Shown in pieces: positions 15,860 through 51,897 of a stretch of DNA of 64,000 nt. Where the stretch lies: positions 62,001 to 126,000 of the forward strand of contig JALCQD010000004.1 in assembly GCA_022651005.1 (NCBI GenBank), read 5' to 3'. Below the pieces are notes generated by a model. The model saw only the letters and a list, made by a program, of their open reading frames with translations. It searched no databases and was not told the DNA's origin. A program made the position numbers and the translations under genes. Source of the stretch: Bifidobacteriaceae bacterium. Its GTDB lineage: Bacteria; Actinomycetota; Actinomycetes; Actinomycetales; Bifidobacteriaceae. Within the stretch, counting starts at the first letter, position 1, and every line of letters begins with the position of its first letter.

Positions 15860-16366
15860 GTGAAAAATCTGATCGCCCAGCTTGTGAAGTTCGGCCTCGT
15901 AGGCGGCATCGCCTTCGTTATCGACTACGGAATCATGAACATTCTTGTTGCTGGGTTCCATGTGAATGCAACGCTTTCGGCGACCATTTCATTCACCATA
16001 TCGCTTGTTTTCAATTACATTGCGAGCATGAAGTTCGTCTTCACTCGCCGTGACGACATGGCGAAGTGGATGGAGATGCTCATCTTCCTCGTGTCGTCCC
16101 TGATTGGCTTGGGAATCAACGATCTCATCATCTGGTACGCAACGTCAGTGATGTTGCCTGCGGGATCACTCACCAGCCAACACGGAAAATACGTGCTGTA
16201 CACGAATATCGCGAAACTCGTTGCCACAGTGATCGTGTCCATATGGAACTTCGTCATCCGTAAATGGTTGCTCGACGCCCCCGTGGAGGGAAAGCAGGCG
16301 AGTCCGGCTGCGCGCGCCATCGGCAAGTGGTCCATCGAGCACACGCCGAAGAGCCGAGCGCGTTAA
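15860..16366 (+). CDS. GtrA-family membrane protein
   Basis: This four-helix membrane protein of 168 residues belongs to the GtrA family, which often helps move polyprenyl-phosphate-linked sugars or modifies surface glycans. The helices are at about residues 6-28, 33-52, 62-85 and 110-132, with the family pattern KFGLVGGIAFVIDYGIMN at the start and FVIRKWLL near the end. I take the GTG at 15860 because the protein then begins MKNLIAQLVKFG like family members. An in-frame GTG at 15821 would add 13 residues, and neither has a strong ribosome binding site. The partner glycosyltransferase is not adjacent. Confidence 0.8.
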   Translation: MKNLIAQLVKFGLVGGIAFVIDYGIMNILVAGFHVNATLSATISFTISLVFNYIASMKFVFTRRDDMAKWMEMLIFLVSSLIGLGINDLIIWYATSVMLPAGSLTSQHGKYVLYTNIAKLVATVIVSIWNFVIRKWLLDAPVEGKQASPAARAIGKWSIEHTPKSRAR

Positions 16367-16447: not shown

Positions 16448-16589
16448 AGTTGTGCCTCGCTTCCTCAAGTTGTGCGATTGGGGCGTGAGTTGTGACTCGC
16501 CTCCCCGAGTTCTGAGACGGTTAACCCTTGATTTCCCAATCGCACAACTCTCCGGAATGGAGCACAACTCCCGCCCCAATCGCACAACC
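16448..16589. repeat. Array A of 20-bp-periodic TTGTGC boxes in two opposing arms
   Basis: Forward boxes AGTTGTGC, AGTTGTGC, AGTTGTGA and AGTTCTGA start at 16448, 16468, 16488 and 16508, exactly 20 bp apart. Reverse-complement boxes GCACAACT, GCACAACT and GCACAACC start at 16542, 16562 and 16582, again 20 bp apart. The inner three boxes of each arm are symmetric about 16528.5, separated by a 26-bp core (16516-16541) ending ATTTCCCAATC. Positions 16469-16494 and 16563-16588 form a 26-bp inverted repeat with one mismatch. The array lies between the convergent gtrA-like and MFS genes. I do not recognise it as a known element. Confidence 0.85.
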
Positions 16590-16638: not shown

Positions 16639-18111
16639 TTACAGCGACACTTCCGTCAGCATCGGGCGCTCGGTGGAGGTCCGAATCTGCTTGAATCCGA
16701 TGAAGGCGATGGCCATTGCCGCAATGGCGAAGGCGAACACGGTGGCGAAGCCGCCCTTGGAACCGAACTGATCGATGTAGCCACCCGCCACGGAGGAGCC
16801 CATGGAGCCGCCGATGGCGTTCATCGCGCTCATCCAGGCCACGGCCTCGGTGAAGCGAGCGGGCGGAACCAAGTGCAGCACAATCTGGTTACCGTTGACC
16901 CACGTGGGTGCCTGGCACACACCGATGATCAAGTAAATGATCATGATCATCCACAGGTGCGACGTGAAGATGAAGGAGCACATGCCCACCACGAGCACGG
17001 CGAGGCAGAAATAGAAACGCTTCCACAGCGGAATCTGCCAGTGCTTGGCGCCGTAAATCGTCACGCCAATAAGAGAGCTGATGGAGAAGCACGCGAACAC
17101 GAAGCCCGTAAACTGCTGCATGTTCTGTTCCTTCGCCATGGCGATCACGGAGATCGAGGTAGCGGACTGGAACGCTCCCAATCCAAACCATGTGGCGCAC
17201 AGGGATAGCAGGCCCGGACCCATAATCGAATCGGACTTGCCTCCAAAGTGCAGGTGCTTCAGAACCCGTGCCGCTCGTCCTGGAGTCTTGCCTCCAGTGG
17301 TAGCTCCCTCGGCTTCTTCTGCCGCGATCGCGTCTTGCACGGCTACGAACTCATTCGTCGCTGCGGTGCCCGCGACGGCTGCGGGAGATGAAGCGGGTTG
17401 CGAAATCCTACGGGATAATTCTGCCCGGTATTCCTTGCGTGACAGCCCGGCTGCGCGCGCCAAATCGGTCTGTGACGGAGGCTCAGTGGAAACTTCGCCC
17501 AGGAACATGAGAGCGCCGATAACAACGCACACTCCCGTGAACGAAAATGCCAGAATGCCGGAAATCACGGCGAGAATTGAGGCAAGCGGGTTGCCCACAA
17601 CCCAGAGGCACTCGTCGAAGATCGAAGACAGGCTCAGTGCAGTCTCAATCTTGCGGGGTTCGCCCTTGAGCGCGTGCGTCCAGCGCGTGCGGCTCATGGC
17701 GCCCCACGGTGGAATCGCCGCGAGGAAGGGCGCAATCATGAACAGAAGCCACACAGGTGCGTGGGTGGTAATCGACGTGACCATTGCAATGGCCGCAACC
17801 ATCCACACTGCAATCGTAGGAATGGACACCTTGCGCTGCCCGAAGCGATCCACCAGCTTCCCGAGAACTGGTCCGAAGACGGCAAGCGCAATCGCCTGCA
17901 CGGCTGTCAGTGTTCCTGCGAGACCGTACGAGCCGTAGTAGTGCTGGACGGAAATGGTGATAGTCATGCCGATCATGGGATAGGGCATGGCGGCCACGAC
18001 CGCACCAACGGCGAAACGTGGCGAATGGGGGGTGGAGAGCAATTCCGCGTATCCGGAAAAGAGCCTCTTATAGAGCTCAGAACGCACCTGTCTGAACGAC
18101 GCTCTCTTCAT
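16639..18111 (-). CDS. Major facilitator superfamily transporter
   Basis: This 490-residue protein has about 12 membrane helices in two halves separated by a cytoplasmic loop (about residues 215-285, rich in Ala, Glu and Arg). The MFS motif GKLVDRFGQRKVS lies in the loop between helices 2 and 3. The overall pattern is that of MFS drug/metabolite efflux carriers of actinobacteria. The substrate cannot be inferred. The ATG is preceded by AGGAGG. The gene is monocistronic: array A lies downstream of it and a 255-bp gap upstream. Confidence 0.85.
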   Translation of the reverse strand: MKRASFRQVRSELYKRLFSGYAELLSTPHSPRFAVGAVVAAMPYPMIGMTITISVQHYYGSYGLAGTLTAVQAIALAVFGPVLGKLVDRFGQRKVSIPTIAVWMVAAIAMVTSITTHAPVWLLFMIAPFLAAIPPWGAMSRTRWTHALKGEPRKIETALSLSSIFDECLWVVGNPLASILAVISGILAFSFTGVCVVIGALMFLGEVSTEPPSQTDLARAAGLSRKEYRAELSRRISQPASSPAAVAGTAATNEFVAVQDAIAAEEAEGATTGGKTPGRAARVLKHLHFGGKSDSIMGPGLLSLCATWFGLGAFQSATSISVIAMAKEQNMQQFTGFVFACFSISSLIGVTIYGAKHWQIPLWKRFYFCLAVLVVGMCSFIFTSHLWMIMIIYLIIGVCQAPTWVNGNQIVLHLVPPARFTEAVAWMSAMNAIGGSMGSSVAGGYIDQFGSKGGFATVFAFAIAAMAIAFIGFKQIRTSTERPMLTEVSL

Positions 18112-29234: not shown

Positions 29235-29436
29235 AGTTGTGCCATGCTTCGCGGAGTTGTGTCACTCTCTTTCGAGTTGTGCGTCGCTTCTGTGACTTGT
29301 GCACCTATTCAGCTGCCATTTTCCAGAGGCACAATTCGCTCGAACGTGTCACAACTCGAAGGAGAGTGACACAACCCAATTGGACGTGGCACGACTCGAT
29401 AAAGTGACGCACAACTTACCGAAGCGACGCACAACT
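29235..29436. repeat. Array B of 20-bp-periodic TTGTGC boxes in two opposing arms
   Basis: Forward boxes AGTTGTGC, AGTTGTGT, AGTTGTGC and ACTTGTGC start at 29235, 29255, 29275 and 29295. Reverse boxes GCACAATT, TCACAACT, ACACAACC, GCACGACT, GCACAACT and GCACAACT start at 29329, 29349, 29369, 29389, 29409 and 29429. Every step is exactly 20 bp. The first four reverse boxes mirror the forward ones; two more extend the right arm. The 26-bp core is 29303-29328 and contains ATTTTCCA. One spacer pair (29263-29274 with 29357-29368) is also complementary, 11 of 12. The array fills most of the 418-bp gap between tRNA-Gln and the convergent nuclease gene; no gene is visible there. Confidence 0.87.
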
Positions 29437-29530: not shown

Positions 29531-30868
29531 TCAGTACCGGGGCTTTATCTCGCAGGCCTTGCCGTCGCCGTCACGATCCAGCGCGCGGGAATAGCCCTTG
29601 TCTCCCTTGTGGATTCCGTGGTGAACGGCCTTCCAGACTGCTGCACAATTCTTGTAGCGCACGGTGGCCGTTTTCTTCGCGGGAGCCTTTTTCTTTGAGG
29701 ACTTTTTAGTCGATTTCTTCTTGGTTGTCTTCTTTTTAGTAGATTTTTTAGAAGATTTCTTTGTTGACTTTTTCTTTGAAGACTTTTTGGTTGTCTTCTT
29801 TTTTGCTGGTGCTTTCTTCTTTGTCGACTTCTTTTTAGAGGACTTCTTCTTGGTGCTCTTCTTTTTGGTGGATTTTTTGGTTGTCTTCTTCTTGGCCTTT
29901 TTTGCGGGAGCCTTTTTCTTGGAAGATTTCTTGGATGATTTCTTAGTAGATTTCTTTGTCGACTTTTTCGCCGTCTTCTTGGTCTTCTTGACGACCTTCT
30001 TCGTGCTCTTCTTTGAGGTCGTCTTCTTCGAGCTGCTCACGGCTGCCTTGTTGACTACGCCGCTCTTGGTGGGAATCGACTGGCTGGGGCACGTCGACAG
30101 GATTCGTGCCATGGCACTCTTCTCAGCGGAGGTGACCCACAGCTTGTAGCGTTGCTTCACGCCAATCTGGCGCGCGACATATTCGCAACGGAACGCCTTG
30201 TTGCTCGGAAGCCACGACGCGGCATCACTGGCGTTCTTCTTCATGTTTGTGGGGCCATCTACCGCTAGGAGGTTGTAAGGATCGTTGGCGAGCTTCTTCC
30301 GGGTGCTGGAGCTGAGTTTTTGCGCGCCTGTCTGCCACGCGTCGGAAAGCGCCACCACGTGATCGATTTGAACCTTGATGCTCGTCTTCGTGCCGCGCAC
30401 AAAGTGAATCGTCTTCTTTGTGTAGGGATCTTTCAGTGTGCCCGAGGTGATGACACAGTTGTGCGTCTTCTTTTTAAACTTTTCACCGGTGAGATCACGC
30501 TTGAGGACATCGTTGCGCGTATCGCAGCCGTTGTGGTTGACGTCTGCCCATGCAGGACCGAACTTCGCACGCGAGTAGCCGGTCTTGGGCGCGCGGCCTT
30601 TGACAGGGAGCTTGTTCAGCGCAGTCCGGGCGTTGCCCTTGCGTGCGGCGGCTGTGGTGACTGTGCCGGTCGTAGTAGTGCGTAATTCTCCCGAAACGGC
30701 AGTGTTCTTAGCAGCACTTTGCGCGACGACGTGCGTGGACTGATGTGTGGCTGCGGCCGCGTGTACGAATCCGATAGCCGCGATGGCAATGCCGAGGAAA
30801 GCGAGAATTCCGCAGACAAGTGCCGCGATCTTTCCCTTGGATAATGTGGTGTGTGTTGTGTTACGCAC
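29531..30868 (-). CDS. Secreted HNH nuclease with histone-like lysine tail and Excalibur domain
   Basis: This 445-residue protein has an N-terminal membrane helix or signal (about 10-35) and a GmrSD/DUF1524-type HNH nuclease domain (about 85-265). The HNH core shows QIDHVVALSDAWQTGAQ and LLAVDGPTN. A tail of about 130 residues is made almost only of Lys, Ser, Thr and Ala. The protein ends in an Excalibur calcium-binding domain with DRDGDGKACE. The start is GTG with AGGAG 9 bp upstream. The protein should act outside the membrane on DNA; the polylysine tail could bind DNA or anionic wall polymers. It is a close paralogue of the gene immediately upstream, 59 bp away, probably in one operon. Confidence 0.88.
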   Translation of the reverse strand: MRNTTHTTLSKGKIAALVCGILAFLGIAIAAIGFVHAAAATHQSTHVVAQSAAKNTAVSGELRTTTTGTVTTAAARKGNARTALNKLPVKGRAPKTGYSRAKFGPAWADVNHNGCDTRNDVLKRDLTGEKFKKKTHNCVITSGTLKDPYTKKTIHFVRGTKTSIKVQIDHVVALSDAWQTGAQKLSSSTRKKLANDPYNLLAVDGPTNMKKNASDAASWLPSNKAFRCEYVARQIGVKQRYKLWVTSAEKSAMARILSTCPSQSIPTKSGVVNKAAVSSSKKTTSKKSTKKVVKKTKKTAKKSTKKSTKKSSKKSSKKKAPAKKAKKKTTKKSTKKKSTKKKSSKKKSTKKKAPAKKKTTKKSSKKKSTKKSSKKSTKKKTTKKKSTKKSSKKKAPAKKTATVRYKNCAAVWKAVHHGIHKGDKGYSRALDRDGDGKACEIKPRY

Positions 30869-50164: not shown

Positions 50165-51067
50165 ATGGCCTCACCCGGAAAACCCTCCCCAGGAAAATCT
50201 GTCGCTCCGCTCAGCAACGAGCAAGTGGCAGAACTCAGGAAATCGCATAAGCTCATCAACCCCACGCACTATTTGACGGGGGAAATGCACAAGCCCAACC
50301 TCGAGGAAATCAACGAGCAGGATCCCCAGCAAACCAAGTGGCTCCTCGACGCGGCATCTCTCATGATTCGTTCCCGCGCGAAGGTCTATGCCTGGGGTGC
50401 AGAACACATTCCGGCGGAGGGCGTCTATATCTGTGCCGCCACGCACGTGACTCAGTTCGACGTGTTCATTCCCATGATGACGATGTTTCATCTCGGCCGT
50501 CGGCCCCGTTTCATGGCAAAAGAGGAGCTCTCGCACTGGCCGTTTGTTGGCTGGGCGCTGCGGCACGTGGGCATGCAGCCCGTTCCTCGACGCAAAGGCA
50601 TGGCACGCGCCATCGAGGATGAGTCCATCAAGATTTTGACGCAGGGCCGTCCGCTGACCATCTGGCCCGAGGGAACAGTGTCACGAGATCCGAAGAAGTG
50701 GCCCATGTCGCTGAAGAAGGGAATGGCGGAGATAGCGCTGATTTCCTCCAGGCGTCTTGGGTACCCTGTCCCGATTTTCCCCACCATCACGTGGGGCGCC
50801 GCCAATATTCATCACATCTGGCCGTGGCCGCGCAAGAATGTTCTCTTGGCGTTTGATAACGCAGTGGACTATTCGGATCTGCTGAGGGATGCCGATACGT
50901 GGGAGAATGGCCAGCCGCCGGCCGTGGCCGTGAACGAACTCACGGAGCGTGTGCGTCGTCGCATGGAGATTGTGATGGCCGAAATTCGCGGGGAGGAGCC
51001 ACCCTCAGAGGGTATGTGGGATTACCGCACCATGTCGCGCGTGCCCCGCCCGGAGATTCGTGGTTGA
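50165..51067 (+). CDS. 1-acyl-sn-glycerol-3-phosphate acyltransferase (PlsC type)
   Basis: This 300-residue acyltransferase probably makes phosphatidic acid from lysophosphatidic acid. The catalytic H-x4-D box appears as THVTQFDVF, the phosphate-binding EGT block as WPEGTVSRDPKKW, and the later proline block as YPVPIFPTIT. The ATG at 50165 is preferred; the longer frame begins in the LacI downstream region. It has no clear membrane helix, and an extended N-terminal part precedes the acyltransferase domain. Array C follows. Confidence 0.88.
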   Translation: MASPGKPSPGKSVAPLSNEQVAELRKSHKLINPTHYLTGEMHKPNLEEINEQDPQQTKWLLDAASLMIRSRAKVYAWGAEHIPAEGVYICAATHVTQFDVFIPMMTMFHLGRRPRFMAKEELSHWPFVGWALRHVGMQPVPRRKGMARAIEDESIKILTQGRPLTIWPEGTVSRDPKKWPMSLKKGMAEIALISSRRLGYPVPIFPTITWGAANIHHIWPWPRKNVLLAFDNAVDYSDLLRDADTWENGQPPAVAVNELTERVRRRMEIVMAEIRGEEPPSEGMWDYRTMSRVPRPEIRG

Positions 51068-51072
51068 TTCTG

Positions 51073-51234
51073 AGATGTGAGTCGCTCACCTGACGTGTGC
51101 GTCTACCAATCAAGTTGTGCGATTACCAACTAACTTGTGCGATTGGGGCGTGAGTTGTGCGACGGCGCCGCCGCTATTTCCCAATCGCACAAGTCGACTG
51201 AACGTAGCACAAGTCAGGTGAGAGCAGCACAACG
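51073..51234. repeat. Array C of 20-bp-periodic TTGTGC boxes in two opposing arms
   Basis: Forward boxes AGATGTGA (weak), ACGTGTGC, AGTTGTGC, ACTTGTGC and AGTTGTGC start at 51073, 51093, 51113, 51133 and 51153. Reverse boxes GCACAAGT, GCACAAGT and GCACAACG start at 51187, 51207 and 51227. All steps are 20 bp. The 26-bp core (51161-51186) begins GACGG and ends ATTTCCCAATC, as in array A. Positions 51135-51159 are identical over 25 bp to 16470-16494. It lies between the convergent plsC-type and DUF202 genes. Confidence 0.85.
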
Positions 51235-51291: not shown

Positions 51292-51897
51292 TCAGTGCAG
51301 CTCGCCCATGATGATCGTGATGAGAATTATGACGCTCGATAGGCTCAGCGTCAGGGCGAGCGTCAGGGCCCAGCCCCAGTGCAGAACGCTCACGCTGGGG
51401 GAGTAGTCGTGGCCCCTCGGGTGCGCGCGCGTAGTCATCTCGGAGATGGCGGCGGAAGCTGTGCCGCTAGCGGTGCTCGCTGCGATATCAGAGGTGAGGG
51501 CAGCAGAAGATGTATCTGAGCGTTCATGGCCAGCGCGGTCGGCGTAGCCTGTGTGATCCGCGCGGTCTCCACGAAGCTCGCGTTCGCGGCGTGCTCGCTT
51601 ACGTTCCTTGACGGAACCGTCTACGTGCTCGAAGTGACGATATACGGATTCGCGGTCTCGCCCTGCAAAGATCAACGCCACAAGTGCAACTCCTGCGAGA
51701 ATGACGATGACGGCATCCCATCCAGCGGGCATATCCATACTCGTCTTCAGAATGCCGGCAAGAGCCACGCATCCGGAAAGAAAAGTGCGGCGCCACGACA
51801 GAGTGGTGCGCTCTATCTGGAGCCCTACATCCACGGGGGTCAGCGGGTGCAGGTGTGACGCCTCGCTCGTGGTCTTGTTATGAACCGCCTCAGCCAA
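51292..51897 (-). CDS. DUF202 membrane protein (downstream of pair)
   Basis: This 201-residue protein has a DUF202 helix pair at about residues 28-80 (DVGLQIERTTLSWRRTFLSG) and a third helix near the C-terminus (about 172-198). They are separated by a charged and then Ala/Ser/Thr-rich insert (about 85-165). It starts with TTG and overlaps the end of the neighbouring DUF202 gene by 8 bp, so its translation is probably coupled. The function of DUF202/YidH proteins is unknown. Confidence 0.78.
   Translation of the reverse strand: MAEAVHNKTTSEASHLHPLTPVDVGLQIERTTLSWRRTFLSGCVALAGILKTSMDMPAGWDAVIVILAGVALVALIFAGRDRESVYRHFEHVDGSVKERKRARRERELRGDRADHTGYADRAGHERSDTSSAALTSDIAASTASGTASAAISEMTTRAHPRGHDYSPSVSVLHWGWALTLALTLSLSSVIILITIIMGELH

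Follow-up and report, generated by a model that had tools for sequence, protein, structure and literature searches.

The stretch of DNA analysed here (the window, 64,000 nucleotides at G000:C4:62001-126000 in a Bifidobacteriaceae genome, G000, of 2.16 Mb) carries three mirror-image arrays of short boxes, which look like parts of an undescribed nuclease-plus-repeat system that is organised like a REPtron but built from unrelated parts. By sequence comparison we demonstrate the arrays and their geometry, their linkage to a nuclease-like gene, the agreement of box and period with the nuclease tree, the dispersal of the arrays, and the conservation of their boxes at two orthologous sites. The same comparisons support the view that the arrays would be DNA bound by protein, selected for its rotational phase and associated with a family of nucleases. 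The three arrays in the window, with their neighbouring genes, are arranged as follows.

Element 1, 16448..16589, minus strand (assigned from the core motif GATTGGGAAATC): four forward boxes, a 26-bp core and three reverse boxes, at 20-bp steps.
Element 1 box starts: forward 16448, 16468, 16488, 16508; reverse 16542, 16562, 16582.
Element 1 core, 16516..16541, minus strand: asymmetric; the minus strand reads GATTGGGAAATCAAGGGTTAACCGTC.
Element 1 neighbours, convergent: a GtrA-type gene on the plus strand, ending at 16366, and an MFS gene, 16639-18111, on the minus strand.
Element 2, 29235..29436, minus strand: four forward boxes, core and six reverse boxes.
Element 2 box starts: forward 29235, 29255, 29275, 29295; reverse 29329, 29349, 29369, 29389, 29409, 29429.
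Element 2 core, 29303..29328, minus strand: the minus strand reads CTCTGGAAAATGGCAGCTGAATAGGT.
Element 2 neighbours: gltX and two tRNA genes upstream of the element, convergent with a GmrSD_C/Excalibur-domain gene, 29531-30868, on the minus strand.
Element 3, 51073..51234, minus strand: five forward boxes, core and three reverse boxes.
Element 3 box starts: forward 51073, 51093, 51113, 51133, 51153; reverse 51187, 51207, 51227.
Element 3 core, 51161..51186, minus strand: the minus strand reads GATTGGGAAATAGCGGCGGCGCCGTC.
Element 3 neighbours, convergent: an acyltransferase gene on the plus strand, ending at 51067, and a DUF202 gene, 51292-51897, on the minus strand.

These loci lie where the first-pass annotation of the window had placed them. 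Checked directly on the letters, their coordinates and layout are as it claimed, and its boxes every 20 bp, forward on the left and reverse on the right, hold at all three elements, with some boxes degenerate (6/8 positions matching). Same-strand pairs of AGTTGTGC boxes (≤1 mismatch) at a spacing of 20 number 14 in the window, against an expectation of ~0.04 given by a simple count from 37 and 34 boxes per 64 kb, and 20 and 40 are the only spacings at which more than one such pair occurs. A blind scan of the window for mirror arrays of any box placed elements 1, 2 and 3 in the top ranks. A weak mirror-array score at 29690-29890 (25, 42-bp period, AGAAGATTTC) falls within the GmrSD_C gene and is probably due to chance. 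That gene, beside element 2, combines an Excalibur domain with a C-terminal GmrSD domain.

The proposal that the three loci belong to a dispersed family is borne out across the genome, where a two-box pattern gave 46 matches versus 1 for the reversed control. The matches resolve into 12 elements, all with AGTTGTGC boxes at 20 bp in two mirror arms, and a separate search for the inner boxes (≤3 mismatches) recovered 11/12 of them with no convincing addition. Located by the innermost forward box, the elements are the following.

Contig C1: 188585, 189799, 195861, 240517 and 454891.
Contigs C2 and C3: C2 at 166321, 571501 and 635541; C3 at 130875.
Window: 16508, 29295 and 51153.

Each arm carries ~3-6 boxes, and the 34-bp distance between innermost boxes, first noted in elements 1-3, is kept in 12/12 copies. 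A directional alignment of the 12 cores reads AGTTGTGC-GATTGGGAAATCA...CGTC-GCACAACT, which confirms the asymmetry earlier ascribed to the core and gives each element a direction. The spacers had been called mostly not conserved, a description that requires refinement: they are non-random. Most repeat units are either box+GATTGGG or box+NNCG, and the left-arm spacers of a locus match its right-arm spacers more closely than those of other loci (best pair 10.1/12 vs 8.5 permuted, 0/5000). This likeness is partly off register, suggesting copying between the arms; in-register pairing of the arms alone is marginal (p 0.058). The neighbours are, by domain, unrelated core genes of the gltX, ilvD, gmk, carA, nusB, dnaG, gdhA, ribH and typA types. 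Neither defined ends nor recent movement was seen for the AGTTGTGC family, whose copies are dissimilar beyond the boxes. In G001, a member of the same genus, the gltX locus has a spacer of similar length without boxes, and in G002 synteny differs, so that neither offers a clean empty site.

Among the 189 Bifidobacteriaceae genomes compared, the AGTTGTGC family is confined to the source species. A search of relatives with the same box, which the first-pass annotation had suggested, found the array above control in none of the 188 other genomes; the relatives use other boxes. Pattern matches elsewhere (83 in the collection of named genomes, 12 in viral contigs) fall in unrelated taxa at about the chance number, and a plasmid search with one element gave no match.

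In the ilvD-gmk interval, two of the 12 elements lie on either side of an intact gene of 294 codons (L032 4801-5685, G000:C1:188800-189684). The first reading, made from the window only, described the arrays and missed this linked gene because it sits outside the window. Its product is a Vsr/EDxHD-type nuclease-like protein (MTES_1575/DUF559), and a divergent one, with a weak Pfam match and a long branch. Pfam finds MTES_1575 in 22/28 homologues and DUF559 in 15/28, mostly under the curated cut-off, and Transposase_17 in none of the 28. The homologue profile matches PDB 3r3p, annotated as 'Mobile intron protein' (E 2e-5), and 3hrl; we take 3r3p to be the EDxHD homing endonuclease I-Bth0305I. 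Residues E178, E220 and D236 are invariant, D209 is present in 27/28 and H226 in 24/28, a set in which the E, D, H, D catalytic pattern of EDxHD/Vsr-like nucleases can be recognised, the residue roles being putative and assigned by analogy. MTES_1575 has been described as a Vsr-family REase domain (PMC3710099). In five close pairs dN/dS is 0.06-0.20, indicating purifying selection.

The linkage recurs with different boxes. G001 has a 35%-identical homologue in the same ilvD-gmk interval, flanked by arrays of another box, GTTGCGATGAATT, at 20-bp steps. The gene lies in opposite orientations in the two species (L032 4363-6014; L149), as if by inversion between the flanking arrays or by two insertions. 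G002 has different genes in this interval. Within G000 the nuclease paralogues are four in all. The one at C1:145412 is accompanied by a separate box, GGTGCTGCA, which recurs every 20 bp on both its flanks and at three further loci. Around the paralogues L159 (G000:C4:186126), L161 (G000:C5:65048) and L162-L164, the flanks hold shorter inverted repeats with motifs of their own (for example TCGCACTCGGTGA, GACTTTTGCTGCAA and CGATTTTTGTGAACTT), in which a multi-box period is not clear.

Homologues of the nuclease were found in 106/189 genomes of the family. Mirror periodic arrays (z>4) occur at 15/56 nuclease flanks in other family species, compared with 0/58 flanks of homologues outside the family but in the same class and 0/23 control flanks; a sizeable part of the 28 homologue loci has no array by the detector used. 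A flank-to-flank similarity score of at least 15 was found at 11/28 nuclease loci of other species vs 1/62 control genes. As homologues across the class lack arrays, the array link is limited to Bifidobacteriaceae, and the nuclease fold does not need arrays. The array periods are 19-20, 42 and 62 bp, or about 2, 4 and 6 helical turns, and the period class agrees with the nuclease tree (8 changes vs a shuffled mean of 19.1, with 0/200 shuffles as low). Box similarity likewise tracks nuclease similarity across 21 loci (Mantel r 0.56, p 0.0005; p 0.057 within the 42-bp class alone). One nuclease clade (L177, L178, L185 and L186) has palindromic boxes of the CTTGGCGCGCCAAG type at 62-bp steps, and in L185/L186 ATTCTT motifs lie between them.

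The 42-bp arrays provide an independent view of helical phasing. Their box, TGAGAGGCAG, forms 57 array arms in G052 and 50 in G082 (control 0), with about 25-28 dispersed arrays in each of the two genomes. Across 32 elements from six genomes, the innermost boxes lie 77-78, 87-89 or 99 bp apart and at no other distance, a periodicity of 10.6 bp (Rayleigh R 0.96, 0/5000); related copies are not independent in this test, but the pattern looks the same when each distinct value is counted once per genome. G052 and G082 share two orthologous elements (L228/L240 and L230/L241), whose flanking genes align at about 70-85%. In each pair 39/40 box bases are kept, while spacers and core have drifted and the core has gone from 78 to 88 bp, a shift of roughly one turn of the helix. 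The first-pass annotation had read the spacing of about two turns as selection for a protein bound along one DNA face; the periods of 20, 42 and 62 bp in related families and the 42-bp cores quantised at ~10.6 bp support this independently.

We propose that each element would act as a multi-site DNA platform, on which the cognate Vsr/EDxHD-like nuclease (C1:188800-189684) would bind boxes side by side on one helix face, the 20-bp step of about 2 turns presenting the same face at every box. The two mirror arms would then meet across the core at one fixed rotational angle. The source unit would be the nuclease gene plus the arrays on either side of it, and the remaining arrays would be dispersed, non-autonomous sites, mostly at gene 3′ ends. 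Taken together, we regard this account as probable; that the cognate nuclease is the box binder is its simplest reading and quite likely. That nuclease cleavage spread the array copies is a weaker proposition, which we hold tentatively. A candidate role for the sites is the organisation of, for example, the chromosome or transcript ends, and the stability of orthologous boxes fits more readily with use by the host than with pure selfishness.

The arrays might instead be sites of another host DNA-binding protein, involved in nucleoid structure, transcription end or a replication roadblock, which the nuclease genes merely adjoin or exploit. The retention of boxes at orthologous sites would be expected from such a protein, as would a BIME-like placement: 9/12 elements lie between convergent genes vs 7/34 of the window's spaced gene pairs (Fisher p 0.0013), a count that rests on gene calls made in this analysis. 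However, the convergent bias is weak in G052/G082 (6/18 classified), box and period change with the nuclease subfamily, and each of two paralogues in the same genome has a box of its own. A host protein of general function should stay with a single box, so this variation with the nuclease argues against it, and we consider a host protein of this kind unlikely.

Another explanation takes the nuclease to be a defence or toxin-like enzyme, held inactive on the host chromosome by arrays that serve as operators and as decoy or self-marking sites. Vsr-REase domains are found in conflict systems (PMC3710099), the phage nuclease Odn requires iterons to cleave (PMC8263062), and PADLOC returns weak matches to a methyl-directed REase and AbiEi. 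No defence model scored strongly, however, and neither a methyltransferase nor a partner gene was noticed beside the nuclease gene in G000; the purifying selection on the nuclease gene does not discriminate between the readings. A defence role is in our judgement improbable.

Transcribed arms could also pair as RNA hairpins, acting as terminators, stabilisers or processed RNA, an alternative that the first-pass annotation had kept beside protein binding. Predicted folding is strong on both strands (z -2.8 to -14) and the arrays lie near gene 3′ ends, but such folding is what any mirror array would show. Across the 12 elements, box pairs have no compensatory change above shuffles, and the cores of the 42-bp arrays step by ~10.6 bp, one turn of B-DNA, which an RNA loop would not need. 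The hairpin reading is accordingly disfavoured, and we give it very little weight. A structured RNA element was rejected on covariation and on the lack of an Rfam match, and an intrinsic terminator on the absence, by eye, of a U-tract after the arms at element 1.

It is equally hard to credit that the arrays are remnants of ordinary MITEs or of transposon ends carrying several transposase sites, since the G000 copies vary in box number and lose their similarity past the boxes, orthologous sites keep their boxes, and the G052/G082 arrays have no target-site duplications (shared flank words are no longer than permuted ones). Terminal inverted repeats together with target duplication were found only in G001, where the loci L248-L256 contain a ~520-bp MITE with a mirror array inside. 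This MITE has terminal inverted repeats GGGTTAATACTCAAATTGTGGGTCTTA (GGGTTAATACTCAAAT...), apparent 8-bp target duplications and about ten copies at 75-93% identity. Judged by these sequence features, the dispersed array copies of G001 were spread by a conventional MITE, which is another route of spread.

A cognate nuclease on phased arrays, as preferred here, resembles several known systems in part. BIME/RIP elements of enterobacteria are inverted repeats around an asymmetric core that lie at gene 3′ ends and bind protein. The arrays share these features, protein binding being putative for them, but BIME/RIP consist of palindromic REP units without 20-bp box phasing. Plasmid iterons, bound by RepA, are direct repeats in phase with the helix. 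The arrays resemble them in their helix-phased direct repeats, and a repeat-dependent nuclease, Odn, exists (PMC8263062); in contrast, iterons are origin-linked, have no mirror arms around a core and are not dispersed over the chromosome. With EDxHD homing endonucleases such as I-Bth0305I, which forms a dimer on a site nearly 60 bp long (PMC3943268), the nuclease shares by profile a related catalytic domain (PDB 3r3p) with the same E, D, H, D, but it is associated with neither intron nor intein and its putative targets are multi-copy intergenic arrays.

The closest parallel is the REPtron, an enzyme gene flanked by inverted extragenic repeats that are also dispersed, with single or few enzyme copies, each with its own repeat; the enzyme, RAYT (TnpA-REP), is an HUH tyrosine transposase whose substrates are palindromes of 20-40 nt with a GTAG tag (PMC2817692, PMC8266576). 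Our arrays have a gene between two repeat copies for the nuclease of G000 and for many, not all, homologues, and are dispersed between genes (12 in G000; about 25-28 in G052 and G082). They differ in both enzyme and repeat: the protein is of the Vsr/EDxHD type rather than an HUH (Y1) transposase, and in place of a 20-40 nt GTAG palindrome there are boxes of 8-10 bp, palindromic in a single clade only, set in phase with the helix in mirror arrays that span about 120-200 bp. A search of the open-access literature found no earlier description of the arrays, nor any paper linking DUF559/MTES_1575 with repeats. Departing from the REPtron in these two respects and lacking such a description, the arrangement looks new in kind.

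To our knowledge, REP-RAYT is the main known case of dispersed repeats served by a DNA-processing enzyme of their own. If our account is true, the arrays would represent a second, independent solution, which uses a restriction- or homing-type nuclease and the rotational phasing of DNA. It is possible, if still doubtful, that Vsr/EDxHD-type nucleases which spread and maintain phased mirror arrays of their own form a hitherto undescribed class of genomic parasite or symbiont, in which box and period co-evolve with the enzyme across the family. Such a system would have gut bacteria that attract wide interest as its hosts, and it would provide the large uncharacterised protein family MTES_1575/DUF559 with a testable function. 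It would also supply natural pairs of enzyme and site with differing specificities, and a clear way to test DNA-looping geometry as it evolves.
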